In this document: piece after piece, positions 4,314 through 62,800 of the stretch
How the letters are laid out: each line of letters begins with the position of its first letter
Position numbering within the stretch: position 1 is the first letter of the stretch
Source of the DNA: Thermothelomyces thermophilus ATCC 42464
Taxonomy: Eukaryota; Ascomycota; Sordariomycetes; Sordariales; Chaetomiaceae
DNA: 64,000 bases
Direction of reading: 5' to 3'
NCBI RefSeq assembly: GCF_000226095.1
Contig: NC_016474.1
Span: 1,922,001 to 1,986,000 of the forward strand
The notes under the pieces: model-generated
Databases searched by the model: none
What the model saw: only the letters and a program-made list of their open reading frames with translations
Told to the model about the DNA's origin: nothing
Program-made: the position numbers and the translations under genes

Positions 4314-4333
4314 ACGGATTACACTACGGAGTA
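4314..4333. repeat. TACGGATTAC + TACGGAGTA word pair
   Basis: The two sister words follow each other directly: TACGGATTAC then, after AC, TACGGAGTA (4325-4333). The same pairing, in various orientations, recurs at 34924-34950 and 48501-48516. Confidence 0.8.
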
Positions 4334-5786
4334 TCAACTTTTAGTGTGAGCGCGGCAAGACCAATGAAATGATCAGCTAGCAGTCAGCAAGCCGAGTGGA
4401 GCTGGTATCTCGGGGCGATCAGCTACCGAGACTGAATCCGCCGGAATTCCACGATTCGCCATTCAAGGCAAGATCGTGCTTGATGTCAGATGGCTACCCT
4501 TTCGTCCAAGACAAGCGCCCAGCGGCCAGTGTCCCCGAATGTGGAACAGTTGCACTGATCCATCGCTCTTTCTTGTTGAGCTTGTTGGTTGAAACGCCCC
4601 GGCCAGGCCCCACTCATGGGCAAGCGATCCTTATCCAACTACACAGTACAGTACCGTGTATGTATTTGTCTGTACGCAGTACTTCGTAGGGCAGCTCGTG
4701 CCCATGTGCCCACTTTCTCATCGCCCCCTGGTTCCGTTTTGAGCGCTCAGAAAACGGGGAAGGAGTATCTAGTGTACGACGTTGCATCGCGCAAGGGGCG
4801 GCAGGGCGACCATGTCCAAGAGGGCCGATCCGTTACCAGCCATTCCAAGGCCGACTCCACGCTCTACTACGGATACAATGGACTGACGCCAGGCCCGGTG
4901 CGGCGACGACAACTGGACATGGGGAACAAACCTGGGACCAACAGATACCGAGTTACACATGCCACTACCAGGCGTCGCGCATCACAGCTGGCTGTGTGCC
5001 AGAAGACTATACAGCAACTAGCCGCCGTAGTCGCCTCGGCCACTGGCATGGCACGCAGCGGCGCCCACGTTTGGCCGGATTTTCTGGCCTCTGACCTCCA
5101 GCTTTTGTCCTGCCGTCCGACACATACCTACATCCAGGACCGTACCTCCTGCTCTGGAGAGGAGTACTACTCCGTACCATGGTGCTTCTTGGCCACGGTG
5201 CTCCCTGTTGACGCTTATACGGAATGCTCGGCCACAGGGGACATCTATCCGCTCACCCCAGCTCTTCCATCTTGGGGGATAATATGGGGGGACAAGGGGA
5301 AATTCGGCAGAAAAGCATCGACTGACACCAGCATCGATCTCGGCTGGCACGCGGCCGAGAAGAGCGGCACAAACGGCGCGGCGCTCAAGACAATCAGCAT
5401 CCGGCAACCCGCGACGGTCGTTGCTTGGGCAATTTGAAAGTCGCGTAGATCATCCCCTTCGCTACCCGGTCTTGCAATGTTGCTCCCAGTCGCGCGCATG
5501 AATTCGCCTTCCACGTCGAAGCGACACGTCTGGAGCTGACAGTTGCACCCGAAATGCACGTCATCAAGACTATCGACGGAACTTGTATGTAGTTATCTGT
5601 GTCGCAGCATGCATCATGCAAGGGACAATTTTCTCTTCCCATCGCTACCCAACTTTGAGAGAAGAGCCCACACGACCCAAGATTATTAGCGCCGTGAACG
5701 GTAGACCCATTGTCAAGCCCATGACCAACCATCCTCTTCTTATCGCCGTCTTGTACCGCAGTATCTCCATTAGGTACGTATGTATG

Positions 5787-5830
5787 TATATACGGAGTAT
5801 GTACTGTACATACATGCAGTACTCCGTAAT
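5787..5830. repeat. Nested inverted repeat built from TACGGAGTA
   Basis: TACGGAGTA at 5791-5799 is answered by its exact complement TACTCCGTA at 5820-5828. Between them lies a second palindrome, ATGTACTGTACAT (5799-5811). The segment could fold as a hairpin. It lies in the large spacer and is one instance of the word family found through the window's intergenic DNA. Confidence 0.85.
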
Positions 5831-6082
5831 CTGCATATACATCCCTTCCAGCAACGAACCCGTGGCGCCCTTTCTTCTAGCAAACCATGCTTGGACCATA
5901 GACCCGCGAGGATCGAGCGTGGGCGCCCTCTCTACAAGTAAACCCTCAATCGGACATGGCAGCCTACGCCACCACCGGTGAAGATATATTCCCCTAATGC
6001 TGACCCTTCTGAAGGGCTCCTGAAACGCCGGCTGCGTAGCGAGTAGGTCCAGGATGCCGATTTAGGGGGGCGCGCGCAACCC

Positions 6083-6101
6083 GGGGGGGGGGGGGGGGGG
6101 G
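6083..6101. repeat. G19 homopolymer
   Basis: Uninterrupted run of 19 G on the plus strand in the spacer, preceded by CGCGCGCAACCC. It could form quadruplex structure and is prone to sequencing error in length. Confidence 0.9.
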
Positions 6102-6567
6102 AGAAGTCTGGTTCTGCCCACAGGTAACCTCCCCCCCGCCTTCTTCCTCCCAACTACGGATCAACCACCACCAGGGGCGATGCTACGACGAGAAAAATAA
6201 AAAAACGCCCAGCACTGTACGGATTACATGCACACACATATATGGATGCCTCGGTATGCAAATGCATGCGTGTCCACAAGCACAACTTTGGTGGTGCAGG
6301 GCGTGAGCTAAGCGCCGGCGGGTCGCGTCTGCGCAGGCCGGCCTCTAGGGCACCGCCGCTCTCTCAGCCCTATGCTGCAACCGACCGTTTGGCTTGCGCC
6401 TCGTTTCCCTACTGTACCAATATGGATAGATTCTGGGTGAGCCCGGGATTGAGACGCGAGATCCACCCTCAATGTTGGGAGTCTTGTGGTACGACGGACG
6501 CCTCGCTACGACGCAAGTACGTTGTCAGGAGAATATTATGCTCCCTGTAGCAGCACACGTTGAGCCC

Positions 6568-6616
6568 TTTTTTTTGGTTTTGTTTTTTTTTTTTTTTTTT
6601 TTTTTGGGGGGGGGGG
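6568..6616. repeat. T-rich tract running into G11
   Basis: Poly-T interrupted by GG and G, then an 11-base G run. Similar T-then-G junctions occur at 25728-25746. Confidence 0.9.
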
Positions 6617-7254
6617 ATTGCGGTTGGCGCTCCCAAACTTATGGGCCGATAATAAATGTAATGGAAGAAATGTAATGGAAGGAAAGTGCGGCGAGGGTTG
6701 GGACACACTTTAACGGATGCGATCTCCAAAGACGTAAGTGGGCGTGGATATGTGGATATGGCATAGGTCTTCCATTTGGAACGCCAGTCATGCTTGTGGT
6801 ATATGCCTGCATCCGAACCGACGCCATGTGCTTCATGGGGACGGTATCGTGGTAGGCCTTTCGTAAGACGTTCCAGCTTCCGTCAATCCTTCGTCACCTC
6901 ATCGATCCTCCACCCCCTTTCCTGACTCTCCCCCTTCCCAGTGCTCGACCCGACGCCTAGACACGCAGAGCTCAACCGCTGGTTCGGGCTTGCTCGGCTT
7001 GCACAGCGTGCCACGAACTGGAAGCTCCAGCTGCCACAATAGCAGAAGGAACTAGTCTTCTTGGACCAGACAGGGAAAGGAGAGCGTCAGCCACCGCTCA
7101 CACTGCTCCAATGGGTTTCCGTCAACATGGCTCGCTCGATCCCTGAACAAAAGGGGCACGACGCCGTGCAGATTAACCATGGCCGGTCATGCGGCGAATC
7201 CGAGTTGGTGTTCCCGACGGACCGACCGGCGGCAATTCCGTTCGGACAGACGCT

Positions 7255-8803
7255 TTAACGCTTGATGATTGTGACTGAAAGAGGAAGGAAAAAATGGTCA
7301 GCCGGGTGGATGTTGAGACGCTTGGTCCGCGACGGGAAAATACATACCGACGTCCTCGTCCGCCAGCTCATGAGCGAGGCCGACTCGCTGCGGCTGGTGC
7401 TTGACCGACTTGCCATAGACAATGGCTACCTTGAACTGCTCAACGATGCTCTTGTGGATTTGGTTACACTGGACAGGCAGATTAGCGTCCCGTTTGACGA
7501 GAAGAGTCCCCGTCGGGAGAGGGCTTACAAAGTCTTCTACCGTGCACTTGTTCGCGCGCAGCACGACGGGCGCCGAGTAGTCTGGCATTTTGCCTTTGGG
7601 CTTGGTATATACCCGGACGAGATTGAGTTTTTCCCACCTGCGTGACGTTTGCAGTCAGCTACGCTTCGGAGTGAACCGTACAAAGGGTTGTCCGCCATAC
7701 ATGACCTCCAGCAGCTCGTCAATGTTCCACCCGTGCTCCGAGCTGATGGGTACCGAATTTGGAATGCGGTAGAGCAGGTCGAGCTCCTCGATGCTGATGC
7801 TGTCAATCTTGTTGAGCACGTAGATGGCCGGGATGTAACTTCGACTCTTTGCCTCGAGCACGTCGATCAAATCGTCGATGGTGGCATCGCAACGGATGGA
7901 GATATCCGCGGAGCTGATCTTGTACCTGCCGAACTTCGTCAGTTTTCCATTCTTTTCTCTTTCCCCCTTATTTCAGGGGCCCCTTTGGTCAAAGGCACAA
8001 CAAGAGTGGTTGTACGCACTCGCTCATCACCGCCCTGATCTCGTCATGATCAATATGCGTCAGGGGCACCGTGCTGCTGATGTTGAGCCCGCCCTTGTCC
8101 TTCTTCCTGAACGTGATGTTGGGCGGCTGCTTGTTGAGCCGGATCCCAAACCCCTCCAGTTCGTTCTCGATGATCCTCTTGTCGTGGAGCGGCTTATTCA
8201 CGTCGAGCACGATGAAGATCAAGTGACAGGTCTTGGCGACCGCAATCACCTGCCGGCCGCGACCGCGGCCGTCCTTGGCACCCTCGATGATACCGGGCAG
8301 GTCGATGATTTGTAGCGGCGCGCCGTTGTAGACTACCTGGCCGGGCACGCTGGTGAGCGTCGTGAACTCGTATGCGGCAGCCTCGGAGTGCTGTCCCGTC
8401 AGCAGGCTCATCAAGGTGCTCTTGCCCACGGAGGGGAAGCCAATGAAGCCGATACTGGCGACGCCGGTGCGTGCAACGTCGAAGCCCACGCCGCCGCCGC
8501 CGCCGCCGCCGCCCGACGGGGTGAGGAGTTCACGTTTGAGCTTGGCGAGTTTTGCTTTGAGCTGGCCGAGATGGTATGATGTGGCTTTGTTCTTTTGAGT
8601 CCGGGCCATCTATTGGAGAACAAAAGGGAGGAGTGCATTAGGACCTGGGCGAGATTCGTATGATGGGGCAGCGGGGCAGGCAAACGTACTTCGGCCTCGA
8701 TCTCTTTGATCTGTGGCGAGCACCCATTAGTGCTCTAAGCTCAAGCAATGGTCCAGGGAAAGACGGAGAGAGTGTAACATACCTTGTCTATTGTGGTCGC
8801 CAT
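7255..8803 (-). CDS. DRG1/Rbg1-type developmentally regulated GTPase
   Basis: Seven exons on the minus strand: 8803-8783, 8710-8690, 8609-8020, 7925-7701, 7637-7529, 7468-7348, 7274-7255. All junctions are GT-AG and all keep frame, giving 368 residues; yeast Rbg1 has 369. The first two exons are only 21 nt each (MATTIDK and IKEIEAE). Residues 71-78 are the P-loop GFPSVGKS, 117-120 the G3 motif DLPG, 249-252 the G4 motif NKID, and the last ~80 residues form the TGS domain ending in VTIIKR. A run of eight glycines precedes the G domain. DRG GTPases bind ribosomes with DFRP-type partners (Tma46/Gir2 in yeast) and help translation of difficult stretches; role here is by homology. Assignment to DRG1 rather than DRG2 rests on length and the N-terminal [19 protein letters not shown] segment. 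Confidence 0.96.
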
Positions 8804-9571
8804 GGTTGCGGTGTTGTGCTGATTCTACCTGTGGGAAGTGCCCTTTCTGCGCTCTGAGGTGGTCGTGGAAACGGCCGACCTGGATGGTGTTGGGTTGTTC
8901 GAACAGCTTCGGAGTGGGAATTTTGGTGGTGGGGCAAAAGTTGATTCAAGGCGGGCCCGGAGGGGCCCACAGTTCTGCATGTCGCCGCAGGTCTCCTCCC
9001 TCTCCGTATTCAACTCTTTGAGATCTCAGGAAGACGTACCGCAGTACTGTTGCGTAAGGTGAACGATAAGATGCTTAGTCATGAGGCTTGCTCGTTGGCG
9101 TATACTTCACGTTACGTACAAGTACATGGGAAACCTCAACCCACACGCAAACCAAGACCGAGTGCCCCAAGCCACCGTCAACTGGTGGCAAAACCGCCGC
9201 GCTCGCCCCCTACCCCACCACCCTCCAGACCGCGAGGATTTCCATCGTGAGGACCAACGCGAACCCGCATGAACACTGTATGTACATCTATAGCAAGAAC
9301 ACCCGCTCCTCCCCAGTAATCTGATGAAAATCAAATGACGACGCCGCTAGACGGCCACGGGTCGCGGTTTCCAGGGGGCAGGCCTCTCCCCGCTTTGGCC
9401 CGCCCCCCCCGGGTCCTTCCGTAAGGAAACGTCTTGAGAAAGCAGCGTCCAACTTCATTCTTGAAGCCGGCACACCCCCGGTTGGTTCTCTCAATGCGGT
9501 CTCATGAAACAAACGAGACTGATGGGCCGAGTACACCATGAGTTCACGCAGAAACCTCCAACTGACACCAC
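8804..9571. other. Promoter region of the DRG GTPase and 3' flank of the ankyrin gene
   Basis: No gene seen. The two neighbouring genes point the same way, so this 0.77 kb holds the terminator of the upstream ankyrin gene and the promoter of the GTPase. There is a short pyrimidine/CCCCCC run near 9400. No copy of the TACGGAGTA word is present. Confidence 0.6.
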
Positions 9572-14356: not shown

Positions 14357-15543
14357 GTCATTTATTCAAGAAGACAACCGCCGTCCTGCACCATCCTGGT
14401 CGCTGGGAGATGAGACGTTAAACAGCGCGGAACAGGGTTGCGCGGTGATTGATTTGAATGTTGAGAGAAGGTTCGCACCAAACAAGCCGAGATCGAGGTG
14501 ATGGAGATGGGTGCCTTCTTTGGTGGGAGAGCCTAGCACGGACACCCAGAACAAGCCGGCGACACGCAAAGGGAAGAAGGACAGGGGCCCAGCGGGTTGG
14601 AAGCGGGCACGGCAGCGCACAAAGGCTTGAAAATTGAAACGCCGAGCCACGAGGGGGTTGGAACAGTGACTAGACGGCTAGACTGCGCCGAATGATATGG
14701 CGTGCACTGATAAAAACGAAAGCGTTGTCGATTAGTTAGAGATGATGGTGGATTGCTTGTGAAATTGTTGATGGTGTGTTTCTGCAAAGAGGAGGCGCTG
14801 GAACGGGACTCGAACCGTGGATCGAAGCTGCGCTTGGCTGGAGGCAAGAGAAAGCGGCCTGCAGCTGGGCCGGATACTCCGTACACTAGTGTAGGCGGAG
14901 CTCGTCAACCCTCTTCCCCCCCAAGATCAAAGGTCTGATCGCCACCTCTGCGATTGGCTGGCTCAGGCTACGGTGGACTGTTTGACCCTTGCGTGCATTG
15001 TGTACTACTGTGTATGTACATTGAACGCGGCCGACAGGGGAGGAGGGGTTTGCGAGCCTGGGCGGGCGTCGTTTGAAATTGCACCGTGCCGGTTGCGGTT
15101 TCGAGCCTTCTCTCCTGCATGGAGCTGGGCACGGGGACATCCTTGCTCGTGCCCGCTGCTGCCTGTTTCTGTTGCCAATGCCGAAGGGTTCAGGCCAAGT
15201 TACCAGTTTGAATTTCAATTTTGGGGGAGCCGGGACCTTGAAAAATTCTTAGTCTCGCAGCCAAACTTCATCAGGTGCGGCATGCTGCGTATGTACAATT
15301 TGCAAGCTCATCGTACCGAGTCATGACCGAATTGGTGCAGTTCTGGTCCACCAACCCGAGCCCGTCATGATTCACGAAAGCTCGGATGCGGCGTGCTCTT
15401 TTGTTGGGCGCGTTGGGTCCTCATAGGCCCGCTTTTCTACCCCCGCCCCTCTCCCCATCTTGGAGCGCTCAGTCTTCTCGCCTCCACTGAACCGGGGGGA
15501 GACCGTCGTCAAAAGAACGGCACGATAACAACTCAGGCGCCCC
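14357..15543. other. Divergent promoter, ankyrin gene / ALKBH6 gene
   Basis: The 1.2 kb between two outward-pointing starts. TACTCCGTA lies at 14875-14883. A perfect tRNA B-box-like word, on the minus strand, lies at 14816-14806, but no tRNA can be folded around it. No other gene seen. Confidence 0.65.
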
Positions 15544-16369: not shown

Positions 16370-16407
16370 ATAATGTCCCAAGAAAGACTGAGCAGGAACG
16401 CCGTCGT

Positions 16408-19577: not shown

Positions 19578-22500
19578 GGTGGGTTTACGGTCTCAATTGC
19601 GTGCAAGGCGTCGGCGAGGCCACGGTCGGTCGTCGTCAGAGCAGATTTGGCTACGGGGGACCCAAATTCGCTTAGCCGGGATTGTCCGGACATGCCTGCG
19701 GAACAATGTTTGTGCGGTGCTCGCTTGCCAAGCCTGACCCAGGTGGTCCAATCCAAGGCCAGGTGGAGGCCCACCTCTTCTCCCTGCCCTGAGCATTTAT
19801 TATGGTGCACACAGCAAGCAGTACGAAGAAGAAGCAGGTCACCTTGCGCCATGCTTAAGATATCCCGTGCAGCTCGCTCGGCAACTGGATGAATGGACAG
19901 ATATCTGATGAGTGTAAGAAGGTGGCTGGATCTCCAACAAGTTTGGTATGTTGCATACAAAGTCATCTTGCCCGAGGACTTGGGCACACTCCTCTTCATC
20001 AAGTCAATTCTGTAGATTCGGGATCCACTGGAGCAAGCGGAGGGTGCATCACCAACCGCCTCCGCTCGAGCACGCATTGATTTATCCCATCCCTTTTGGG
20101 CACATCGCATCCTTTCAAGACCGCCAGCGGAGATTTCTTACTTCGCCGCATCCTATGGCCTGCTGTCCCGCTGGGATCAACAGGACTCGACTTGAAGATC
20201 GGCCTCTTGTCCTCGCCCATTGCAATGTCATTTGGTTGTTGTTTCTGATTGGCTTTACAAGTCACAGGAGTCTCTGGATAATGACTTCCGTCTCATTGTT
20301 GTTGTTGGCCTACGTTTCAGGGCGACGAGTGGGAACCACAGGGCAACGCACATGTGCACGCCGATCGCTAGAGTAACGGCTACGCCGGCTTCGGCGGCGG
20401 GATCCTTGGACTCGATGAAACGCTCCACGGATACTGTGTGCAGGTTCTGGTGGAGCCGTCGTTGCGGAAGCCAAAAACGTGAGGTAAACTCTGAATGTCG
20501 GCAATCAATGTATCTGAGACCTTTGCAAAAAATTCGTCTGTTGCCTGGTGCTCTGGCGAACTGCTTGATTGAGTCAACACACCGAGAACCGGGTATACAA
20601 AATAGTTACCCGGCGCCGGTGTGGTTCCAACAGCCCAAGCTTCTAGCGATATCTTTTCTTGCATCTGAGCCACCTGAGCTCACAAAGAGTGCGTGTCGAC
20701 TAACAAGCTGTTCAATGCTGAGTGCCTCGGCTGTAGTAGATCAGGTGCCACCTCGAGCGACCCCGTTCCTGTTTCTTCCCACATGGCAAAACTGAAAGTG
20801 CCAGGCATGACGTTGGCTCCGACACTAGCCTCCACTGGCAGGTCGTCAGCCCAGGTATGAAGGGTCTTGGGCTTACTCAAAGGAGGGTAGTTCCAGCGCG
20901 CACGAAACGAAATGCATGAGCGGCCATGTCAGACCACGGGACAGCGCCATGGGACCGCTCTTGAATGCGGGGTCGTCTAGCTCTGTTTCATTCCCTTGTC
21001 TCCCATGCGGCGATCGTGGGCCCTGACCAGTTGGACCCTGGCGCGAGGTTGTGGCCCAAGTACGGATACACTCTGGTAGGCTTGTTGGAAGCATAGTGGA
21101 AGGTGATCCCTGGGTCCTTTCTCTGGGAGCGGGGAAACGGCTTGCGCCTCTGGGTGATCAACGGAGCGACTTTCGCTGGCGCCAACGCGCCTCACGAATG
21201 GGAAGCAATAGCTAGTGGCAGACGACTCCGGGAATCATACGGCATTCGTCAATCACTTATGCGTGCAAAAGGTAAATGACTTGGAAGTAGCCATTACAGT
21301 CAAATATAGTTACCAATAGATTCTGCACTTGGTGTTACATCCTCGTGGGCAATGAGGCGGGGTGACCGACAGTAGTGTATGTTGCGTGAAGAAGGGCGGG
21401 CAAAAGTGTCCCACTCACTAGTGTACGGACTACAGTAGACCTTACCTACCCGAGATACCCAGATAGGTTAGGCAAGGAATGTACCTAATTTACTTACGAT
21501 ACCCAAGGTACTTAATACGAAGGGAGACAAGCCAAGTCTAGAGGTACCTAAATATGGTATCCTGAAAGATGTATACACTAATAGGTAAGGTAGCTTTAGA
21601 TGTACGGATTATAATAGGTATACGGAGTATACGTATACGTATATCGTTCTTGCATTTGCACTCGGGGCTTCCCAATCACGCCAGCTAAACAAGAAGGGTA
21701 GGTTTTCCTATCCAGGAAACACCAAATAGGCACCATAGGTACCTACTAGAGGGGTACTACATAAACTGCGCCAGAAGCCGGGAGCAGTCCTTACGTCCTT
21801 CCGTTATACCTTGTTTACGTAGAACGAGTTGACAGGATGAGAGCTATTGAAAGTCATGGCTCTGGTCTGAATGTATGGTATGTGCACGAGTAACTTTGTC
21901 GGTGCTTGGCTCTATAATTTACGTGGTACGTACAGTACGGATTACACTCCAAGGAGATGCAAGCAAAACCCAAGCGCCAGACCCTGAGCCCACTTCAAGC
22001 CTCCTGCAGGTCATCCAGGAATGAGTGACATGAGTTGTCTCAACCTGTAACAGGCTTGCAGATCGCAGAAGGCTTGTTCGACTGTGCCATGCACAAATCC
22101 TAAAACGTCCGCCTTGAGGTGGTCATGGTTGCCTCATTTGAGAAATATCTGGAATGCGTGTCCATTTCCAACTTATACACATACTGGTAGGCTGCAAGAT
22201 CAAACCAGCTGTCGCAATCGCTACAATCCGGGCCGATCTGTGTTCGTAGCCCAAACCACTCTGAGAGGACAGAAGAAAACCTACCATTTGCTGACAGGAT
22301 ACTAAGATGCTCCACCCGCCACGCCAAGTCCCGGACAGAACCGCCAACTCCTTCCGCATCTCCTCTGACAACACGGCCACTGGCACGCGTCCTCACTGAC
22401 AGAGCGTACACGCTTTCGTCAAGGTCTATTGTTGTTCAACAGCCGAGAGACTAAAAGAAAGACTAACAGCCAAAAACCGTAAAGGTGAACAAAGGTTAGG

Positions 22501-27382: not shown

Positions 27383-28388
27383 ACGGCCGGTGCTCGGGGC
27401 TTGGGGGCGTTAATCCAGAGTGATATCTGTTGTGTGGAGAGTGTGGTGTGGCGCAGGAGCCGGGGGGGTTTTCGAGAATTGGGGCCATGGCCGTGGAAGT
27501 GGCCAATGATAAATTCAGGCCTACTCGAGTGCATCTCACTATCGACGGGGCTGGCGTGGAAGTGGGTTCGTGCTGTTGCGCGGGCCGGTGTTGCTGTTGG
27601 GGATGGATACACTGTGTCCTTATTATTACATCTATTTGCTCTACCAAACACTATATGACTCGCCAACTATGTCTCTCGTGTGAGTATCCCTTGACCTGAA
27701 ATGTATCGTTGAAAGTGAAAGGGCAAAGAGGCAAATGCAATCTCCAGATCTTCAGTCCTTTCAGCCTGGCCAGCGTTTGGTGGCTCCTTCTTGATGCCAA
27801 TGTAGGCTGTTACCACCCGTGCGCTGCTTTTTTTTTATTTTACTTTATTTATTTATTTCTTTTTTTTTTTTTTTGGTTCTATCTCGTGATGACGCAGGGA
27901 CGAAGGTTTCAGTCACCTACTGGTTGCGACTGCTCACGCGGCTCGGTCCGCAATTATGCAAGTACGCAGCATATGCTTCAGCTCCAATGTGCCCCGCGAC
28001 CGGCTGATGCAGTGGACGTGTTCGGAGGGCCCACTCGAGAAAGTCCTGCTGTGTGTACTCCGTACGTACAGTAACACTACGGAATAAGCCTTGCAAAAGT
28101 AAACCAACAGACGTCATTCCACCTTTCCAACATGCAACTTACAACTCGAGGCGCTTCACACGCCGAGGCCGTCCAAAAGCTCGGCCAAAAGTAGCCTCCC
28201 AACATGCCATACTTCCGATATGGTCTTAACAATTTTGGCTATCGACCGCGTGCCGAGGCTCTTAACGTTTTCGGCTGACTTTGCCCTCCCGGGATCATCG
28301 ATCGGAACCTCGCAATTGGAAGGATCCCGTGTCTCGAATCCTATTACACGTCAAGAGAGCCAGTGTGGGGAGTTCGAGAACCAGATAC
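27383..28388. other. Intergenic region, SAR1 to patatin lipase
   Basis: 1.0 kb between two genes on the same strand. It has a T-rich tract at 27828-27874 (with TTTATTTATTT) and TACTCCGTA at 28056-28064 followed at once by GTACAGTAACACTACGGAAT. Promoter of the lipase gene; no gene seen. Confidence 0.6.
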
Positions 28389-31036: not shown

Positions 31037-33697
31037 CTCACCGAGCCGTCGAACATCCTTTTTTTTTTTTTTTTTTTTGGGTTGATCTAGCAGGCCTCTC
31101 TGTTGACGAGCGCGCAAATTTATCGGTCCTGCTGGAGTTTGTCTTTGCCAAGTGCCACACCAGTTGGCACCGTTTGGACTAGGGAGGTGCATTGGAATTA
31201 GAAGCATAGGGCTCCTGATACATCGGGCATATATGACTTTTGCCTTGCCATCGGGTTGAGGCGCGTCCTTTTTTTTTTTTTTCTTCTGCTTTTTTCTTAA
31301 ACAGGAGGAGCATGCTGAAGTGGCCGGTATCTGCAAGGTGATACAGACGGGGATCCTGAGTTCTGAACGCTGCAAGGGCATCATCTTCTTCTCCCTGCTT
31401 GCCTTGCTGATACCGGCGATCCATACCTCTGCATGCACACACGCGCACACACACACACGCGCGCGCACACACGTGTACTCAAATCGAACTTATTGTTTGT
31501 TTGGAGAAATGACGCCGATAACAAGTTCCAAAAGAGAACAAAGAAAGAGACAAAAACAAGGCCGGTCAGCATTCATGCGTGTCCGACCTGTGTTACGAAT
31601 CTAGTCTCATGCACAATGGGGCACACGCAGCCATGATAACACTGGCGCTCAGCTACTCCAGTCATCGCCGGCCCGCCATGTTCTAAAGACCGGGCTAGGC
31701 TGGCTAGGCTGGTTGAATGTACTGTATGTATGTACATACATACAGATTTATATGGCTATGGAATACGGCATATAGCAGCAGGTGTAATAGCATGGCCGTG
31801 TGTACTATGTATACTGTAAGGTTACCCGTCCCTGACTTTGGCTTGCGGCCGAGTTACACTACAGTTGACCGTTGCTTGCTCCCCGCTGCGTCCCGCGCGC
31901 CGCCCGGCAGGGCATGGCATGGCGCTGAGCCCGGGTTCTCCGTTACCAGAAACCGAGCCGAGAACAGGTTTGGCTGCGAACCCTGTCTTGGTTGAGAACC
32001 GGGGTTCAAGGGGTTAAGACACTTCCCTCGTGTGGTGCGCAACCGGGGAAAGCGGGCAGCGCGTCAAGTCAGTCAAGGAAACACGGGAGAACCTACGCAC
32101 ACTGCGGGCTCCCCCCTTCTCACCTCGTGCACTTGTGTATCAGGGTAAGGTTCTGGGCTGGCTGCTGTGGGATCTGTGCTGTATGTAAAAACAAAAAAGG
32201 GACAAGTGATTCGGCCAACGCTACCGTCGAACGGACGTCGCGGGCCCCGACTTGTTCGCGTCGAGGAGGAGGGAACAACAGTCCACATTAGTCCGGATTA
32301 CAACACTCCGTTGCTGGGACCGGCTAGCGAAGCACCCAAGACGACACCCGTACGGATGGACTCGGACGTCGTAGGTGAACCCACTACGGAGGTAGTTCTC
32401 AGCAGCCGTTGGAAGAACAGCGGTGAGGGAACAAGACTGCCGCCGGCAGTTGAGTGCCGGTTGAGCGACCACATGCTCTGTTATCCGTACAACTACGCAG
32501 TACGGATTACATCCGTAGCATTGCGCAGGAAAGCAGGGGATCTCGGACTCGCTCCAAGAACGAGTGGGTGCTGGTTCTGCCCCCTATCGGACGACGTCAC
32601 CTAACACGCTCTGTGGGGAGGCAGAAGAACTTTATCAGAGCCCATCGTCGGTGGGATACGAAGTCTGCAGCAAGGGAGACTTCCCTCATCCAAGTTACCG
32701 GCCGGCGGTGTCATAAATCGCGAGCGATGGAGAAGGAACTCCTTCGCAATCTGGGATGGACAGCGTTCACTTCCCCGGCTTTGCCAACAAGGAACTACTG
32801 TGTACCGGGCTGTATGTCCGAGGTTCCTCCGTGGTGTAGCAAATTATTATTTATTTATAGGCGCATCTATTCATGCAGCCACGTCTATCATAACCGCGGG
32901 CCCAGAATTTAAAAAAAAAAAAAAAATTGCCAGCAAAGGTAAAGGAGTCCAGGAATTCCCCCCCTCATGGGAGGCAACCCAACATCCAGGTACCAAGTAT
33001 GTGCGTTGTCCTGCGTATGGAAGGTACACTGCGACACTGCTACGTGGTGTAACAGGACCCTGATGGAGAGATCCCTGGCAGTGGGTAAAAAGTCCTGTTT
33101 TCAGATTTCATCGGTACCCACCGCTCCAACCGTCAGCCGAAAAACTGGGGTTGAAACAAAGGCGATGGGACCTTGGTCCATCCAGGGAACCATGGCGACC
33201 AATCAAGCATCGCAGATCAGCGAACCGCAATTTCCGAGAAGGTCCACAGGTAAATTAACCGACAACCCCCTGCCAACTCACGGCACGCACCCATCAGGAT
33301 GTGGAAACTGGACTGTCTTTTGGGCGCTCTTGCTTGGGTTCTCGAAGCAGTGGGCTGTGACGAGGACATAGCACGCTTCTTCTCAAGGCATTGAGGGCAA
33401 AAAAAGGCTGAGGTCGTTAAACATTCGAAGGGTAAAAAAAAGACGTTCATCAGCCGAACCACAATGAACGCCAAAAATACAATTAGAAGATTAAGGTACA
33501 AAGAGGTATCATGCCATTCAATCCGCTACCTGGCTGAGAGAAAAGAATTGAATTCATACAAAAAGGTTGATATAAATCCAATTCCTTCCCCATCAAGGTA
33601 GCCCTCCAAAACATCCCCAAGCACAAACCCCCATTTCTCGCTCTCTCTACTCTAGGCGGCACGCCACGAGACGGGCGCCGGCTCAGAGCGGGTGAAC
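31037..33697. other. Convergent intergenic region, lipase / GPI protein
   Basis: 2.7 kb between two 3' ends. It has T18 at 31061-31078, a T-rich run at 31269-31284, a CA/CG microsatellite (31435-31474), GTATGTATGTACATACATAC at 31725-31744, A16 at 32911-32926 and GTACGGATTAC at 32496-32506. I see no gene. Confidence 0.6.
31435..31474. repeat. (CA)n/(CG)n microsatellite
   Basis: Alternating purine-pyrimidine stretch of CA and CG steps for about 40 nt, a potential Z-DNA former. Confidence 0.9.
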
Positions 33698-34348: not shown

Positions 34349-34923
34349 CTTGACGGTGGTTTGCTTAAAAAGGTTTCGTAAGAAACGAAAGGTTGTTGGG
34401 GTGAAAGATTGATTGAAGCTGAAAAGCTTGAGTGTGTTGTTGTTGAAAGAGTGGACGACCGAAGTCAAAGAGCTGGGCTTCAATTGGCTTGCGTGAGCTG
34501 AGGAAAGAAAGGGAAGAGGAGCAAGTCCGAGATGGGATACCAAGGGGGCGTTAAATACTACACCAACTAACCTCTTCCACCGCTTCCTGCAAAAACAGCG
34601 GGAAATTACCGTCACCGCCGGCTGCCCGATTCGGAGGGCGCTAATCCAGGGGCTCGGTGGAGGGCAACATTGAGGGGCGAGACATTTGGATTGGCAACTC
34701 CGCTCCCAAGTGCCAGCACATCCTTCGGATGCTGGACCTGGGAAACGGCCGCATTGCCGCTGAACGTGCGGGGCCGCCGTTCCTGCATTCCAGCAAAGTA
34801 CCCAGTCGCAACGACCAGCGCCGAGCCGGGGTCTGATGTTGCTTGCCTTGCTACTTCCAGCTGAGGTTAGCGCAGTGCACGCTTACTCTGTACTGTAGTA
34901 GTTAGTGATCAACGGAAGGTACT

Positions 34924-34950
34924 GTACGGAGTAACCAAGGTAATCCGTAC
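34924..34950. repeat. TACGGAGTA / TAATCCGTAC inverted pair
   Basis: GTACGGAGTA then, 7 nt later, TAATCCGTAC, whose complement is GTACGGATTA. The two sister words here form one imperfect inverted repeat. Confidence 0.85.
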
Positions 34951-46207: not shown

Positions 46208-48151
46208 TCACGCAACCATAGCGCCCACGGCCGCGGGGATCTCCGCAAACAAGATGCCCTTGAAGGCCGCCTCGCCCATCTCCTCGCCCCACTGCCCTGC
46301 TCGTTTCAGCGCCGCCTTCCACTTCTGCTTCTGCTCCTCCGCCAGCTCCTCCCAGCTCTTGGCCTCCCCGTGCCGCGCGGCGTCGTGGCCCTCCACCCGG
46401 ATCACCACCTCCTCCTCCGCGACGTGATGCAGGACCACCACCACAGTCTTCTCCTCCTCCTCTCCCTCCTCCCCGTCCTCCTTCTTCTCGCCGGCCCCCG
46501 CGCCCGCGCCGGTCTTCTTCCCCTGCAACGCCTTCTTGGCCTCGTGGTACTCCGCCAACACCCCCGCAACCGGCAGGGGCGAGGGCGCCGCCGCCTCCGC
46601 CCGCGCCTCGACGGCGACGCCGTAGAACCGCCCGGGGCTGTGCCAGCGCACGGGCGTGACGGAGCGGGCGCCGATGACGGGGCGCGAGAGGCCCTTGACC
46701 TCCAGGACGCCCTGCAGCAGGAGCGCCAGCAGGGCGAAGACGAGGGCGGAGGTGAGGAGGAGGCTGGCGGGCGAGGGGCGGCGGGGCTTGAGGGCTAGCG
46801 TGTATCCGGGGGCTCCTTGCTGCTTCTCTTGTTGTTGTTGACGTCGTCGTTGTTGTTGTTGCTGCTGTTCTTGTTCCCGCCGGGGTCGTAGCGGGAGAGA
46901 GTGGACCACGCAGGTGTTGGCCATGGAGCCTATCGAGGCGAGTTTGATGTGCGGGGGTTGCTGCGGTTGCTGTTTCCCGGCGGTCGCCGAAGGGGTTATG
47001 CTGGAGAAGGCGAGGCCGGAGATGGGGCCGGCGTGGACCTCTTTGAACGTGGTGACTGGGTAGAGGTTGGATATGAGGTTGATGTCGCCGATGGACTGGT
47101 GGTCGAGAGTGTACAGCGTGATGGAGCTGTCCTGGCCCGTCACGGCGATGACGAACTGGGTCTCGTCTTGCTTGGCGAACGGGCTGGCCGGGGGGGAGAG
47201 ATTCCGGACGGCCATGCTCGTCGCGCGCCTGATGCTCTTGGGAAGTTTCGCCGAGATGGCCAGCCTGGCTTTCCCTTCCTTCTCCTCCTTACCCAGGTCG
47301 GATCGGTTGGGAAGGCGGAAGCCCTGGAGGACCGCGCCGCCCGACTTGATGTTTGCGACGGCCAACACGAAGGTTGGTGTCAGGAAGCGTATGCATCGCA
47401 GGGAAGGCCGATCCTTGGCCCCCGTCGCTGCGTCCAGCGGCATCGACCAGACGGCATGCGGACCGCTGGTGGCCGTCTTGGTGACCACCAGGGTGTAGAT
47501 GTCGTAGTTGTCGCAGTACACCAGTTGGTGCTCGTCGTCCGAGACCTGCATCATGTCCATATCCTGAGCCTCCTTTGGAAGCTCCACCTTCCCCCGGAGC
47601 TGGGGCGCCGGGCTGTTGCTGGTCGCGGCAGGCATGTCGAAGACGGCGATTTGCGGATCGTTGGAACGTCCGATGCTGCCTGTCGCGGCTGCGCCAACCG
47701 GGCCCGATATCCTCAGCAATCTCTGATATGCGTCCGTGTCTGTGGTCGAGAAGAGGGCGGACCTCGAGATCTCGGCGATCTTGGGGTTGGGCTGTTCCTT
47801 GGCCCCGGAGGGCAGGTCGGCTGCAAACACCCTGAAGTGTTCGTTCTTGCCCTTCTTCAGATCCTCCTCGGCCGAATTGATACCCGCGTAGAGGAGAAGC
47901 GCGTTATTCCTGCGCGAGCCGACAACAAGAGTGTTGACGCTGTCTTCGTCGCGGCCGAGTTCGATCTCCGAGACAATTTGCGGCGCGGCGTCGTGGGATG
48001 CGTCCAGCACGCTGATCTTGTTCCCAACCCCGCTGCGTGCAGCTCCGCCGCCGCCGCCCACGATGAGGCGGTTTGCATCCTCGGGGTCGAAGTCGAGGGC
48101 ATATAGAGGGTACGACAGTCGTACCTCGGTCCGGGGTATTGGGGGGGCCAT
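46208..48151 (-). CDS. SEC12: Sec12-like ER membrane exchange factor for Sar1
   Basis: Single exon, 647 residues. The N-terminal ~400 residues form a WD40-type propeller beginning RLSYPLYALDFDPEDANRLIVGGGGGAA, with the N/GNKISVLD segment after it and repeats such as HAGPISGLAFSS; this matches the cytosolic GEF domain of Sec12 (PREB in animals). A Gln-rich insert (~424-446) precedes one transmembrane segment (~457-484, LLLTSALVFALLALLLQG), followed by a ~160-residue luminal domain with an acidic run (EKKEDGEEGEEEEK). There is no HDEL signal at the end, which reads AVGAMVA. Sec12 loads Sar1 with GTP at ER exit sites; SAR1 itself is at 26498-27382. Type II topology is expected. Confidence in the family is good, lower for details of the luminal part. 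Confidence 0.88.
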   Translation of the reverse strand: MAPPIPRTEVRLSYPLYALDFDPEDANRLIVGGGGGAARSGVGNKISVLDASHDAAPQIVSEIELGRDEDSVNTLVVGSRRNNALLLYAGINSAEEDLKKGKNEHFRVFAADLPSGAKEQPNPKIAEISRSALFSTTDTDAYQRLLRISGPVGAAATGSIGRSNDPQIAVFDMPAATSNSPAPQLRGKVELPKEAQDMDMMQVSDDEHQLVYCDNYDIYTLVVTKTATSGPHAVWSMPLDAATGAKDRPSLRCIRFLTPTFVLAVANIKSGGAVLQGFRLPNRSDLGKEEKEGKARLAISAKLPKSIRRATSMAVRNLSPPASPFAKQDETQFVIAVTGQDSSITLYTLDHQSIGDINLISNLYPVTTFKEVHAGPISGLAFSSITPSATAGKQQPQQPPHIKLASIGSMANTCVVHSLPLRPRREQEQQQQQQRRRQQQQEKQQGAPGYTLALKPRRPSPASLLLTSALVFALLALLLQGVLEVKGLSRPVIGARSVTPVRWHSPGRFYGVAVEARAEAAAPSPLPVAGVLAEYHEAKKALQGKKTGAGAGAGEKKEDGEEGEEEEKTVVVVLHHVAEEEVVIRVEGHDAARHGEAKSWEELAEEQKQKWKAALKRAGQWGEEMGEAAFKGILFAEIPAAVGAMVA

Positions 48152-48792
48152 CGCGTGACAGCGCGGATTCGGTTTTGCGATACTTCTTCTCCAGCTGGCG
48201 GGGTATCGCGTCGCGGCCGTGGGATACCTATGTGGTAATGGTTAATTATTTTTGTACCTTTTCCTGCGAGGTCAAGTGCTGCGCCAGCACTTTGTAATCT
48301 CGCCCGCAGGATAATCGATGCGCTCGCAACAGAATGACGACGATGTCTGGTGCAGTGAAGCCTGGGCTTGTGCAGTTTTGCTCCTTCTCTGTCCTCTTTA
48401 AGAGCCCACCCAATCAGCGAGCGGGCGCCCGTCCCCAGATTCTTAGCGCGAACCTCTCTGGCAGGGGTGAAGCTCCAGACCTTCGACCTAGTGTACTATG
48501 TAATCCGTACTCCGTACGATGTATGGAATCCGTAAAGCGGCAAGAAAAGCTAGCAAGGATGACGTCGTTTTCTTGGCACCTCCTTTTGTACTCCGTACAG
48601 TCAGTATGTACAGTACATACATGTATACCAAGTATAAGAGTATTCCATAAAAGTACAAAACCTTCCGTCGCGTGGTTAAAGGAGAGGCAGTCTCGGACTA
48701 ACGTTATCTTCAGAGCTAGAGCAGATTTTTTTACAAAGTGAGGTGCGAATTTCTCGTAAACAATTCTCCGTGTTGAGGCACAGCCGGGGCCG
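48152..48792. other. Promoter region of SEC12 / 3' flank of aldehyde dehydrogenase
   Basis: 0.64 kb with two TACTCCGTA sites (48508-48516, 48589-48597), the first overlapping TAATCCGTAC, and a GTATGTACAGTACATACATG stretch right after the second. No gene. Confidence 0.65.
48501..48623. repeat. TACTCCGTA pair with GTATGTAC/GTACATAC palindrome
   Basis: TAATCCGTACTCCGTAC at 48501-48516, TACTCCGTA at 48589-48597 and GTATGTACAGTACATAC close behind at about 48605-48621. This is the densest combination of the three intergenic words in the window, 350-460 nt or so upstream of the SEC12 start. Confidence 0.8.
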
Positions 48793-56302: not shown

Positions 56303-58030
56303 ATGGTTCACTGCCGACTCGCCCATCCGCTCTTGCACGGTTAATGATAGGAAAGAGAACGATTCTATTATTGTTCTTTTCTTGAATGATAGAGCCTCCC
56401 GAATACAACCCAAAGCGTAAAGTTCCAATAAAAGAACTCTTTTATATATCATTCTAATATGTAGCTTATGTATAAGACTTGGCTTTAACCGTATTAAGGC
56501 AGCTCACAATGGCGACGATAACTAGGTACAATACCTAATTAAGGAATGGAATGTAGAGGCGTTATGTTTGGCAGCCGTAAAGCTTAAACTGTATTTATCA
56601 TTGCTACAACGCTTTCTGCAATCTTAGAATTTTTGTTCCTTCCTTCGCAAAGCATGTAGGGTTCGGATTGTACAACTGCACGCAGATTTTGTCATTTTTT
56701 GGTCCCAGCCCGAGTAGCCACGCTGAAGAGGCGCTTGAAAGATGATATTCGGGATTTCGGTTGAATCTGCGATGATCTAGTTACCTAAGATCGAACCCTT
56801 GATTCAATATACCGACCGCCAATCTGTTTCGATATCTTCACCGCTCGCGGTCGGACGTTTTGGCATTGGATCCGTCATCAAAAAAGTCCCGTCTGAAGTC
56901 ACCTCAACACTCCGGCCAGGGTGGTCCGAAATCCATTATTAATTAGGGCATTGGCACACCGGGCGGTCTTGTCAACTAACTATTGTAGGTTCAGCTCGAA
57001 TCAAACGCCATCACTCCATACGATCCCTGGCTGCAGCTCAGTCCTGGGGTCGCTCTCCAGGGTATCTGGCCAATGGTCCGGGGATGCTGACAAGAATTAG
57101 GATCAGCCCAATCCTTCGAGGTCATGTGGTTTCAATAACGAAGCTACTTTTCCCTTCTAATTTTGGGAAGTGTGGCGCTGGCCATTTGCATGTTTTGGCA
57201 CTCACTGGATCTGAGGCGGCATTCGCAAGTGTTCCAGGCTACAGGCGCGTCCCGACAAGACCAATTGAGCATGACATATTGACAAGAAACTGAGCCCATT
57301 CGGCTCATGAAAAATACAGCACAGAAGGAAAAAATAAGAAGGATGAATCCTTTGAAAACTCTGGTGGCTGTCGGAGACTTCCCAGGGTTGCTCTCTAGAG
57401 CTGCTCCCGTGTCCCAACCTTGCGTTGCCCGCTCCCCTCCTTCCTTGTCCACGTCATGCCGAGAGTACTGTAGTGTATGTACATACATGCATCACGGTCC
57501 TGACCGAACAGATGCCCTGTATCTGCTAGGACTTTTCATGTCCGGGCCAGTAGGAAGCTCAGCCGCCCGCCGGGACGCCGTCGGATGACAGATCACTCCG
57601 TTAGGCCACTCGCCTAACAGCCCTCCTGGAGAGCGGCTCGACACGGCTCAGATCGCGGAGCCCACCCCCTAGAGTACGTATGTACTGTATGTACTCCGTA
57701 CAGATGGATCACAATACGTGTATGTATGTATGTACATGCATACGTTGAGGGCTCTCCAGGGGTGTTACTAGTCTAGTGTCGAGGACGCACCGAGAAGCAA
57801 CTTGCTACCGAGGTTAATTATCGATTCCTTGAATTGAAATCCGTACAGCGTGACTGATGGATCTGAGGCAAATCCTCGGCAGGTCTGGCCAACAGTCTTT
57901 TCGATAGCTGACTGGGCTGCCACAGATTACCACCCTGTGTTCCGAAATATTCATACGCCGGATATTTCCCCATTGATGCGAAACACCTGTCTTGAAGGTA
58001 TATATTCCTGTGAAATGCAAAAGCGATGCC

Positions 58031-58057: not shown

Positions 58058-58411
58058 ACCTATAGGTGTGTATTTTGGCAATTCCTTATTAGTGGATCAT
58101 ATATGTGAACACGCAGTCGTCAGGCTGGTATCTTTGTTGTCTGGCATGGATGAAACTAAGGTACTGGCTAGCTCCATTCGCCCGACTACTTAAACAGGCG
58201 TACGTCCATTCCAATATAGATGACCATCCACAGGAGGGAATGGTCGAGATCGTAACGGGCCGTCGCCCGCCACCAACCAGCCCATACTAACTTTGGAATC
58301 CTACCAGGCGGGTGAACAATGAGTTGCGAAGAATCAAGTCAACCGGCTGCCCACCCGGCGGCGGCGGCGGGGGGCGCGGGGGGGGGGAAGGGGGCGAAGG
58401 AACCTCCCTAG

Positions 58412-59832
58412 TTAATACAACTTATATGCGAACCTCGGGGTCCCCTCGGCACCGACGTGCACCTTGAAGACGGCGCCGCCGAGGCGCCTGCTCTCGCCGT
58501 CGGCCTCGCCGTCGTCGTCGGCGGCGGTGGTGATGACGAGCTCGCCGGCGCCGACGAGCTCGCAGCAGGTCGCGTTCCTCGTCGGGATGCGCACCTCGCC
58601 GACCAGCCGGCCGTCGGGCGAGATCTTGAGCACCCTCGCCTCGCCGTACACGGCGTGCCACAGGTTGCCGTCCGTGTCGACGCGGAAGCCGTCGGGCTCG
58701 CCCGGCCCGTCGTGGCGGTAGAAGACGCGCTGGTTCGAGTGCGCCCCCGTCGACGGGTCGTAGTCCCACGCCAGCACCTCCCGCGCCGTCGAGTGCGTGA
58801 AGTACATGGTGCGGCCCGAGGGGGAGAAGCCGACCGAGTTGGGGATGGTGAGGTCTGAGAGGGTGCGGGCGGCCGGGGCGCCGGCGGTGAAGCGGTAGAG
58901 AGAGCCTGAGAGTCCTGTGTTAGTCCGAATGGAGGGTAGAGAAAAATAAGAACAAAAATCAGAGAGGGAAGGGAAAAAAAAGAGAGAGAGAGAGAGAGAG
59001 AAGAGAGAACGATTAGAGACGCAAAAAGGCTTAGAGTAAGGACGTGCATGGGGTCATCTGGTAGGAGGAGCTAGCTAATGGGTACATTGAGGGGGTAGGG
59101 ACGAGACATGAGGGTTACATGTAAAGTATGCGCGTCAGACCACATGGCACGGCTAAGAGCTGCGGTGTGGAATGGCCGACGGCAGAGAGGATTGCAGATG
59201 AGCTGGCGAGTGAGATTATGGTGCGCGGAGGTGTGGGTATGACGGTGGCCTTTACTTCTGGTGCTGCTTGGGAGTCTCTGAAAGCTTGCCACGTATATAT
59301 ATGGCTCATAGCCCCATGCGAGTCGAAGGGCCCCGGCCCCCCCCCTTCCGTCCGTCCGGTAAGGCAGGATGGGAAATGGGAACAGAAAGCATCGGAACCT
59401 ACCCTCTGGCTGAAAAGGCCCCTGGCCGAAGTCTGTCATGGTCCCAAGCCAGAAGCGGCCGTTCGGGTCGACCACGCCATCGTTGCTCCGGATCCGTTCG
59501 GCCTTCTCGTCGCCAAACCTGGTGACGTATTCATACTTGCCCGTCTTCCTATCCAGAACGGCCAGGCCCTGCTTGGCCCCAACCAGGAGAGCCTCCTGCG
59601 GATCCCGGCCTTCGATGTCGGCCGTGACGGTGACGGGCTCATCGAACTGAAGCGTCTGGAGCGACGAAGGTCCCTCGGCGAGCGAAACGGTGTGGAGCTG
59701 CTTCTTGATGATGTCGACGAAGCGCAGCGTGTTGGTGGCCGGCTCATAGTATGGCCCCTCGCCGAGCGAGCAGTGCGTCTCAAGGTAGGGCTCGCTGACC
59801 TGCCATTGCTGGAATTCCTGTCCCGCCGCCAT
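58412..59832 (-). CDS. SMP-30/gluconolactonase/LRE-like hydrolase
   Basis: Two exons, 59832-59403 and 58905-58412, giving 307 residues, the family's usual length (~300). The metal site can be traced: E25 in CSLGEGPYYEP, the Asn in RSNDGVVDPNGRFWLGTM, and the Asp in PDGFRVDTDGNLW. The propeller repeats include TLRFVDIIKKQLHTV, AVLDRKTGKYEYVTRFG and NSVGFSPSGRTMYFTHS. The start is the ATG at 59832 (MAAGQEFQQW); upstream open sequence begins with GTG only. Intron 1 is 497 nt, several times longer than others here, with a (GA)n tract; the splice joins FQPE to GSLYRF, as in homologues. Members are Ca/Zn-dependent lactonases of sugar acid pathways or regucalcin-type proteins. The substrate cannot be told from sequence. 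Confidence 0.92.
58981..59007. repeat. (GA)n microsatellite inside the SMP-30 intron
   Basis: AG steps for about 20 nt, then AAGAGAGA, preceded by an A run. It lies within the 497-nt intron, where on the transcribed strand it reads CT-rich. Confidence 0.9.
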
Positions 59833-62800
59833 TGCTATTACCGTGGTCCTCGGTGACAGCTCAGCCGTGTTGGAAGCCCGGATGGATCTGTGTGTAAGAG
59901 GCGATGATTGGATAATAACGACGCTCCCCACCGAAATCTTCCCCCCCTTCTTAGTGGGCCCCTTGACCGTTTACAGACGGGGGACTTGACGACCTTCCTG
60001 ATATCCGAGGGGATTGTTCAAAGATGGGATGGGCTTGTGAGAGAAACCGCGCTTATTTGTAGTGAAGTACTCGCATAAAGTATCCCGCGGGTAGGGTCGC
60101 GGACTTGCCATTTTATCATCTGGCTACGGCTCCCAAGGTGGGGAAAAAGGAGGGCCATAGCGAGCGGCCCGGCTCGCGGGGTCGGAGTGTAGCACTCCCG
60201 TTAACGTTATCTCCAGAGTAGTTGTAGTCTGGTCGGATACCGGCCCTTGGATCCGCAGCTGCGGTCGATGTGGACAGCCGCCGGGAAAAGAGTGGTGGAG
60301 CATGCTGAATGGTCTGAGATCCCGGCCCGGCTCAAGAGCGCGAAAATGGAATGGGCGTTGGCGGTCGCGGGAGAACGGATGCAGGCTGCTCGGTCGAGTT
60401 TGGGTGACGGGCTGGAGAGTCGCTGTGCTGGAAAGTGCTGGCCCTCAAGAGCTCGGCAGGTATGGCACGCGTAGTTGTTCGAGACTGTTTGCCCATCCGT
60501 ACCCCGCCGCATGTGCGAAGTACGGGTTACGTTTTGTGCACTAATCTAGCCCGCCTCGATGAGGTATCGAGTCAACGGTTTGACACTTCAGGGTCGTGTT
60601 GACCTTCTCGGGCGAACAAACAGAAACCTGCAGCACTGTAGAATTGTAGATGACTTGCTTTGTATTCCGCGCACATACGAAAAAAAAAAAACCCTTCAGG
60701 AGTCCAATTGTCGTAGAAGACATGGCGCTGAGAAGAGGCGAAGGGAACGCGGACGGAGCTGTCATGATAACTACGGAGTAGTTAACGCAGCATGGTTTTA
60801 TATATGACCTGGGAGTTCATTTGGGCCCGCGGGTGCGAGGTGCGACTTGGCCTTGCATCTTTCCCTGAATACCACGTATATATAGAAGTATGTACATTGG
60901 GTCTAAACAATATCAAATCAGTTTGCTGCTTGATTAAATACCGTCGTGATTGATGTGGTCGCTCCCAGTTTATGAATATCAAGCCCTCACCTTACACAGC
61001 AGGTAGATACGTACAGTACCTGAGGTGCGGAGGTATCCCACCTGAGGCGGTGAAATACGGGATACTGTAGGGGCATTGTGGTTCGCTTTGGTCGCTGCCG
61101 CCAGGGTCTTGGTTTGCGAGAAGCGCCTATGGACTCTAGGCGAAAGAGGTGTACGAGTAAGACACGCGAGTCATGGGATAATAAGTCATTGCCGGAGTTT
61201 TCCCAGTTGTTTTGAGTTTCGTTTTGTCAGTCGCTTGGTTGAATTGACGCGCGGACTGGACTGCAAAAAGTTTCGACACGGGTGCTGAATGTGATCCCGG
61301 CAAGTGCCGCCTTGGTACCTGAATCAGCACGTCCAAGGTGTTGGCTGCATGGGCACCAACCAGTAGTTAGTACGATTCGTTCTTCTTTTGTTTCCATGGA
61401 AGATAACTACTTTATACGCACGAACCTTGGGTACCTTAAGGTACTTGATACAAGGTACTTCCGTGCTTGGGACCAACCTGGCCGAGTTACTTCAGGAAAA
61501 GGAAGGCTAGGCACCTTTGATAACCTGGTACTGTACGTACTCCATACATACCTCAGACACTGGCATCGAGCACAGTACTCCGTACCCCGTACCACTTTCC
61601 GGTCTGCATGTCCTGAGATGCAAGTCAAGGATGTATGTACAGTACCCGACGGTACGTGCTTCCGTAAATGATCTGTTATTGCGACATGTGGCGCTGAAAA
61701 AAAAGAGAGGTCTTGCATACCCGGTCTGCTGTGCCACCACCATCTCGGTTGACTCGCAGGTCCCCTCACTTGATGCGTTGTTGTTGTGGGTGGTGCAGGT
61801 GGAACCTCCCAATTTCTCGGATATTTAGTGGCCTGAGGCTGATCGGCTGGGTACATACACTAACTGCGGGTAAAGTTTGCACCCGCGACTGTTCTCGCAC
61901 TTGCAGTGTATGCAGGGCCTGCAGGGCCCACAGCCCACACCCGCCATCCTCGCTGCATGCGTGCCATCGTTGCATCCTGCTGTTGTGTCTTTTTGGTCCT
62001 GGGGGCCACTGCTTCTGAGTTGGCATTGCAGGCCCCAGAACAGCAGCTGCTGTATGCATGCCACTTGTTCCCCACGTCCTGGTTGGACGTTCTTGCTCGC
62101 AGAAGCCGTGGAAAGATGCCGACCGCCGCTCGTCCCTACAACCGGAAAAGGAGATGGAATATCACCCTTTCGGGAACAAGAAGGATCCCGTGACCGGAGA
62201 CAGGGGCGCTTGATCTGGAGGTCAGCGAACCACATTACCTTGACCGTGGGGGTGGGGGCTGAGACATTGCACTCAGGAGGATCCTACTTCGCTCGAACTG
62301 GCATCATTTCTTCCCGATGAATCGGGCTGGGGCCGGGTTGGGGGTTGGGGATACACTAGATAGGTCTTCACGAGTTTACGTACATACATACATACAATAG
62401 TTATCTATAGTAGAGCACTAAATAAGGTTAGATGCCTTATGTACTCCGTACCTGAGGTAGGTAATGGTAGGTACAGTACACTACTCCGTACACTTTCACA
62501 CTACGGGGTATATCAACTCGCCTCTACCACGGTACTCCGTACCAGTCGGGAAATGTCAGTGAATAGAGAATTTTGGTTCGACGATGTCATCATTGCGGAG
62601 GCCCCTCAATTGCCTGCGCAGGTTTCTCTGCTAGGGCTCGAAGCCGAATGCGGTGAACGACCTTGCGGATCATTGAATGAAAATTCCCATGGACAGTACC
62701 ATACGCCGGTGTACTCTTGCAGTTACTGCGTAGCGCACCATGCCACTAGCCCCCACCCTTGTTGCTCATGCCAGCCCATCGGTGTGTGTCATGGTGGAGG

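Follow-up and report, generated by a model that had tools for sequence, protein, structure and literature searches.

TACGGAKTA, a probable promoter transcription-factor site of Thermothelomyces thermophilus, with SomA and PtaB candidates as its predicted readers

What role might be played by a nine-base word that recurs between the genes of a single fungal locus? The window analyzed here is a stretch of 64,000 nucleotides from Thermothelomyces thermophilus ATCC 42464 (NC_016474.1, positions 1,922,001 to 1,986,000), on contig 3 of the assembly, and the word is TACGGAKTA, comprising TACGGAGTA (G form) and TACGGATTA (T form). The word shows a sharp consensus, genome-wide enrichment, no mapped coding copies, a lean toward the 5' sides of genes, clustering and unshared flanks, and it is very probably a promoter transcription-factor site. 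The wider reading, in which this site is shared by Eurotiomycetes and Sordariomycetes and SomA and PtaB candidates are its predicted readers, is given a probability of about 0.6. Part of this was known from other fungi; the present analysis extends a known word to a genome of the Sordariales and adds the alternative of G or T at one position.

The G form occurs 16 times on the two strands of the window, against a mean of 0.11 and a maximum of 1 in 100 dinucleotide shuffles, and the consensus as a whole occurs 23 times against 0.24 expected by shuffling. An initial annotation had listed 16 exact copies of the G form, all at correct coordinates, and its chance expectation of about 0.5, although higher than the shuffled value, had rightly pointed to an enrichment; the seven positions that it gave for a sister word match the seven copies of the T form (Table 1) to within 1-5 bases, the offsets being due in part to a longer word having been named. 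The genome-wide count that it had proposed also came out in its favor, since both words lie far above their reversed-word controls in the 38,744,216 bases of the 7 contigs: the G form has 1440 + 1405 = 2,845 copies (reversed word, 102 + 61 = 163) and the T form 1147 + 1140 = 2,287 (reversed word, 245 + 188 = 433), giving 5,132 copies of the two core words together. The 11-mer GTACGGAGTAC was found 353 + 335 = 688 times, compared to 8 + 3 = 11 for its reverse, and 7 of the 16 G-form copies in the window carry this full 11-mer (GTACTCCGTAC / GTACGGAGTAC). Moreover, with 16 copies in 64 kb, compared to 2,845 in 38.74 Mb, the window carries the G form about 3.4 times as densely as the genome does on average.

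The consensus was delimited in a 224-kb set formed by the window and 16 of 20 random 10-kb loci, the four AT-rich loci that were dropped (GC <= 0.48) containing 2 further sites. In this set the G form was observed 28 times against 0.84 expected and, in non-coding DNA alone, 28 times against 0.6, which places it seventh among the 9-mers of that DNA, after homopolymers, words of the TACATACA type and an AG repeat. Among the 32 TACNNNGTA words, strong enrichment was restricted to the GGA spacer, and a generic TAC-N3-GTA spacing was rejected, as the next best spacers (GCA, ACA and ATA) were only mildly raised, at 7 copies each. Just two single substitutions of the G form stood out: T at position 7 reached 14 copies against 0.42 expected, and C at position 5 was raised far less (7 vs 0.68). 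Additionally, single sites favor W-G on the 5' side of the word and C-W on its 3' side, which defines the fuller form WGTACGGAKTACW. Beyond these positions the flanks are dissimilar, with a mean of 13.0 identical bases in 50 and 24 in the best pair (2,485 pairs among 71 distinct sites), as the initial annotation had noticed for the copies in the window; the word is therefore not the end of a repeat family, and the suggestion that it could be the terminus of a vanished tiny element finds no support on the same grounds.

The placement of the sites was assessed on a home-made exon map from a seven-state coding hidden Markov model (HMM) trained on the window and the loci; a Pfam scan of its frames in the window returned a match for 16 of 22 (9/10, 5/10 and 2/2). 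None of the 42 sites in the window and the 16 random loci overlapped coding sequence, nor did any of 79 copies after the addition of 16 site-anchored loci, a figure that counts some places twice where loci overlap, in agreement with the earlier remark that the coding exons are free of copies. By chance, just 0.19 copies of the G form and 0.04 of the T form, about 0.23 in total, would be expected in the 92.6 kb of coding sequence, so that these results demonstrate an excess outside genes but do not establish an avoidance inside them. The density was highest in divergent gaps (12 sites in 19.8 kb, 0.605/kb), followed by tandem gaps (14 in 55.5 kb, 0.252/kb) and convergent gaps (1 in 16.1 kb, 0.062/kb), with the other 15 sites in 35.5 kb of locus-edge gaps of unknown type. 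The nearest genes were oriented away from the sites in 38 cases vs 18 (41 clusters, site-anchored loci included, p = 0.011), and for the unbiased loci alone, with 25 clusters, a cluster permutation gave p = 0.014. None of the 42 sites lay closer than 200 bp to a coding end, and at 200-1000 bp the nearest end was 5' for 15 sites (about 31 kb) and 3' for 5 sites (about 30 kb). The lean toward the 5' sides of genes is real, though the numbers are modest.

The sites are also clustered, with 13 forward-strand pairs spaced 15-120 bp over the initial 2.25 Mb of contig 1, where the local rate gives 2.3, and eight neighbors no more than 100 bp apart in the window, where simulation gives 1.15. Doubles that overlap by a shared TA occur in tandem (142 genome copies), tail to tail (89) and head to head (21), and the reversed controls yielded none of any kind. 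The 142 tandem doubles, which repeat at 7 bp, and the enrichment of other TAC-rich words close by are what would be expected if the word were a neutral simple-sequence product, generated by slippage of (TACGGAK)n in intergenic DNA. However, 53 of 72 distinct contexts contain a single copy within 20 bp, slippage cannot make the inverted doubles, and it predicts neither the 5' lean nor a consensus common to a fungus of another class, which makes such an origin very improbable; a microsatellite of head-to-tail arrays was rejected for the first two of these reasons. The order within the tandem doubles (G form then T form in 33 vs 6 of 100 listed) is a consequence of the G that is favored on the 5' side of the word.

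Three other words accompany the sites: GTACWGTAC, TACATACA or GTACATAC lies within 150 bp of 20 of the 42 sites, compared to 10.1 expected in the same gaps. GTACWGTAC has nine copies in the window (4646, 5801, 21930, 34919, 48608, 61011, 61528, 61637 and 62471) against 0.14 expected, seven of them within 70 bp of TACGGAKTA and two overlapping it, and may be a companion site. TACATACA has 31 copies (1215 to 63472) against 0.61 expected, partly in short tandem runs, and both TACATACA and GTACATAC tend toward the vicinity of TACGGAKTA.

The identity of a possible reader is suggested by work on Aspergillus fumigatus, where GTACTCCGTAC, the reverse complement of the 11-bp form found here, was the top motif in the shared peaks of SomA chromatin immunoprecipitation sequencing (ChIP-seq). 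In electrophoretic mobility shift assays (EMSA), recombinant SomA bound promoter DNA bearing the motif and mutation of the motif blocked binding (PMC7667024); binding to the meaB promoter was likewise seen by EMSA. SomA is a Flo8/Som1 regulator linked to cyclic AMP/protein kinase A signaling and a partner of the LIM-binding protein PtaB, and its targets include stuA, medA, chs and fks1. The two systems share the identical 11-mer (on opposite strands), its position upstream of genes and the presence of SomA and PtaB candidates. They differ in that A. fumigatus belongs to another fungal class, the T form is nearly as common as the G form in T. thermophilus, and occupancy is known in A. fumigatus only, where 476 shared SomA peaks were reported against 688 exact 11-mers and 5,132 core words here. 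Taken together with the sharp motif, the promoter lean and the clustering, this correspondence with a motif known from ChIP and EMSA strengthens the proposal of the initial annotation that the word is a conserved regulator site, whereas its remark that no assigned function was known is outdated in view of the SomA literature.

The genome of T. thermophilus appears to encode candidates for both partners. The best fit to SomA among five LisH candidates, a gene on contig 4 (L019), is predicted to combine a LisH stretch and FLYEWFCLFWDMF with an extended tail of low complexity and the string PSPSKRPRL, and SomA of A. fumigatus has a LUFS domain with LisH and a conserved nuclear signal, PSPSKRPRLE. 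The LisH stretch and FLYEWFCLFWDMF each give a weak alignment with the LUFS domain in SSBP structures of the PDB. For PtaB the candidate lies on contig 7 and has a LIM_bind match (E = 7.4e-62). The possibility that somA or ptaB regulates itself through the word was considered and rejected, as no copy is present in the 3 kb of the SomA locus or the 3.8 kb of the PtaB locus.

According to the mechanism that we propose, TACGGA(G/T)TA would act mainly from promoters as a transcription-factor element, the SomA and PtaB candidates would read it directly or through a DNA-binding partner, and this reading may tune genes of the cell wall, adhesion and development. By analogy with A. fumigatus, the SomA complex can be put forward tentatively, at slightly less than even odds, as the main reader in T. 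thermophilus. Several observations speak against the proposal and temper its probability. The motif was present in just 119 of the 476 shared SomA peaks in A. fumigatus (PMC7667024), the matches of the SomA candidate to PDB structures are weak (E 0.24-0.59), its LisH falls under the Pfam cut-off, and TACGGAKTA is absent from the 3-kb SomA and 3.8-kb PtaB loci. Besides, 14 of the 42 sites are closest to the 3' end of a gene (12 of these at least 700 bp away), and the promoter gradient comprises 25 clusters on a home-made exon map, with a single convergent site and 15 of the 42 sites in edge gaps of unknown type.

Alternatively, the primary reader across filamentous ascomycetes might be a different factor, perhaps a C6 zinc-cluster protein that recognizes the CGG of TACGGAKTA; SomA and UvCGBP1 would then yield the word in ChIP owing to their presence on the promoters bound by this factor. 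The CGG triplet is weak evidence alone, but the word was reported to overlap a predicted C6 zinc-cluster matrix of Aspergillus nidulans, JASPAR UN0291.2, a likeness taken from the citation in PMC12153272 and not from the matrix itself. In addition, ChIP-seq of UvCGBP1, an unrelated C2H2 factor of the Msn2/4 type in Ustilaginoidea virens, also lists TACGGAGTA as one of six MEME motifs (PMC8344781). That motif resembles the one described here in its identical nine bases, in the mostly promoter-located peaks and in coming from another Sordariomycete; it differs in being one among six and in being known as a ChIP motif rather than from direct binding. The overlapping palindromes, with 89 of the CGG-N6-CCG form to 21 of the CCG-N2-CGG form, might suggest the geometry of a C6 dimer; however, single sites seldom have C at position -1 (0.09), which at least partly predicts this asymmetry, so that it is no proof of a dimer and was rejected as proof of a C6 reader. 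Considering also that recombinant SomA shifted motif-bearing DNA and that mutation blocked the shift (PMC7667024), such a different factor as the primary reader is rather unlikely. SomA/PtaB thus stands as the best-supported predicted reader, with a C6 zinc-cluster or general factor as the main rival.

The third sighting in print concerns mobile elements. TACGGAGTAG is the predicted target of the Starship Tardis in A. fumigatus, and CTACGGAGTA lies above the 99.99th percentile of k-mers in that genome; the authors propose a transcription-factor site and pose its function as an open question, and SomA is not named in the main text (PMC12153272). The core word, its genome-wide over-representation and the suggested transcription-factor site are alike in both fungi, while copies bounding an element are predicted only in A. 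fumigatus and the window has no captain match. The word could accordingly be kept as an insertion address of Starships or similar elements, with its abundance derived from them and not from gene control, and in one captain-like locus of T. thermophilus the T form does precede the first captain match by about 420 bp. Nevertheless, 5,132 copies stand against three captain-like loci found, all on contig 6 (a lower bound), the other two of which have no copy in 3.4 kb; the flanks of the sites are unrelated, and a target must pre-exist its use, all of which renders such an origin extremely improbable. At least five DUF3435 matches were found in the genome, all on contig 6, and Starship edges in the window were rejected, as no DUF3435 captain match was obtained there. 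The idea of an element target site put forward by the initial annotation is thus echoed by the prediction for Tardis but finds no counterpart in the window. The captain-like loci (L010-L014) lie at 2.83, 2.94 and 3.82 Mb of contig 6, and two of the three contain in-frame stops.

In a decidedly unlikely scenario embracing all of these sightings, TACGGAKTA would serve filamentous ascomycetes as a promoter landmark, recognized by a single abundant general factor that opens promoters; SomA, UvCGBP1 and other regulators would dock at the word, and captains of the Tardis type would have adopted it as an insertion address. The results suggest one cis-element common to two classes, with the same bases and a tolerance of G or T at one position in the Sordariales, and they provide SomA/PtaB as a testable candidate reader; given about 5,100 copies in one genome, the reader probably touches many genes. 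The printed sightings, namely SomA ChIP and EMSA, the ChIP of an unrelated factor and the transposon address, stand apart in the sources covered, and no paper linking SomA, UvCGBP1 and Tardis was found among the matches listed in the non-subscription literature. Other leads (FvCon7, AtrR, SntB, an A. flavus protocol paper and short interspersed elements of A. fumigatus) contained primers or an unrelated element only.

Table 1. Copies of TACGGAKTA in the window, with their strand and surroundings.
Word	Position	Strand	Setting
TACGGATTA	4313..4321	+	tandem gap on the HMM map
TACGGAGTA	4325..4333	+	tandem gap shared with 4313
TACGGAGTA	5168..5176	-	tandem gap shared with 4313
TACGGAGTA	5791..5799	+	left arm of inverted pair with 5820; GTACTGTAC between, at 5801
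TACGGAGTA	5820..5828	-	right arm of inverted pair with 5791
TACGGATTA	6218..6226	+	tandem gap shared with 4313
TACGGAGTA	14875..14883	-	divergent gap: ankyrin/KRIT1-type gene (-), 2OG-Fe(II) oxygenase-type gene (+)
TACGGATTA	21603..21611	+	divergent gap: ATP synthase delta/epsilon-type gene (-), DUF2457 gene (+)
TACGGAGTA	21621..21629	+	divergent gap shared with 21603
TACGGATTA	21936..21944	+	divergent gap shared with 21603; overlaps GTACAGTAC at 21930
TACGGAGTA	28056..28064	-	upstream of DUF3336/patatin-type lipase gene (+), downstream of Arf-family gene (+)
TACGGATTA	32501..32509	+	sole convergent-gap site of the set
TACGGAGTA	34925..34933	+	divergent gap: unnamed gene (-), C2H2 zinc-finger gene (+) 3.7 kb off; overlaps GTACTGTAC at 34919
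TACGGATTA	34941..34949	-	inverted neighbor of 34925
TACGGATTA	48501..48509	-	overlapping 7-bp tandem with 48508
TACGGAGTA	48508..48516	-	about 270 bp upstream of minus-strand gene 46211-48241
TACGGAGTA	48589..48597	-	gap shared with 48508
TACGGAGTA	57692..57700	-	tandem gap
TACGGAGTA	60772..60780	+	first of five-site group
TACGGAGTA	61576..61584	-	five-site group from 60772
TACGGAGTA	62442..62450	-	five-site group from 60772
TACGGAGTA	62482..62490	-	five-site group from 60772
TACGGAGTA	62533..62541	-	five-site group from 60772

The five-site group at 60772-62541 lies 0.9-2.6 kb upstream of a minus-strand gene of the SMP-30/gluconolactonase type with its 5' side around 59970; the right-hand neighbor gene falls outside the window. 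No structured RNA was detected in the window by Rfam (0 matches). A cellobiose dehydrogenase frame of the genome (L040) matches PDB 4qi6, the enzyme of Myriococcum/Crassicarpon thermophilum, over 462 residues with about 93% identity. Elsewhere in the assembly, the sole 5.8S ribosomal RNA match found (contig 1, 3555250-3555403; L015) is situated in AT-rich sequence resembling C-to-T decay of the repeat-induced point mutation type, and intact ribosomal DNA may be missing from the assembly. Finally, the interval between mapped genes at positions 834-7300 of the window spans 6.5 kb and contains six copies of TACGGAKTA but no convincing coding frame on the home-made map; a gene that the map missed or a non-coding transcript could be present there.

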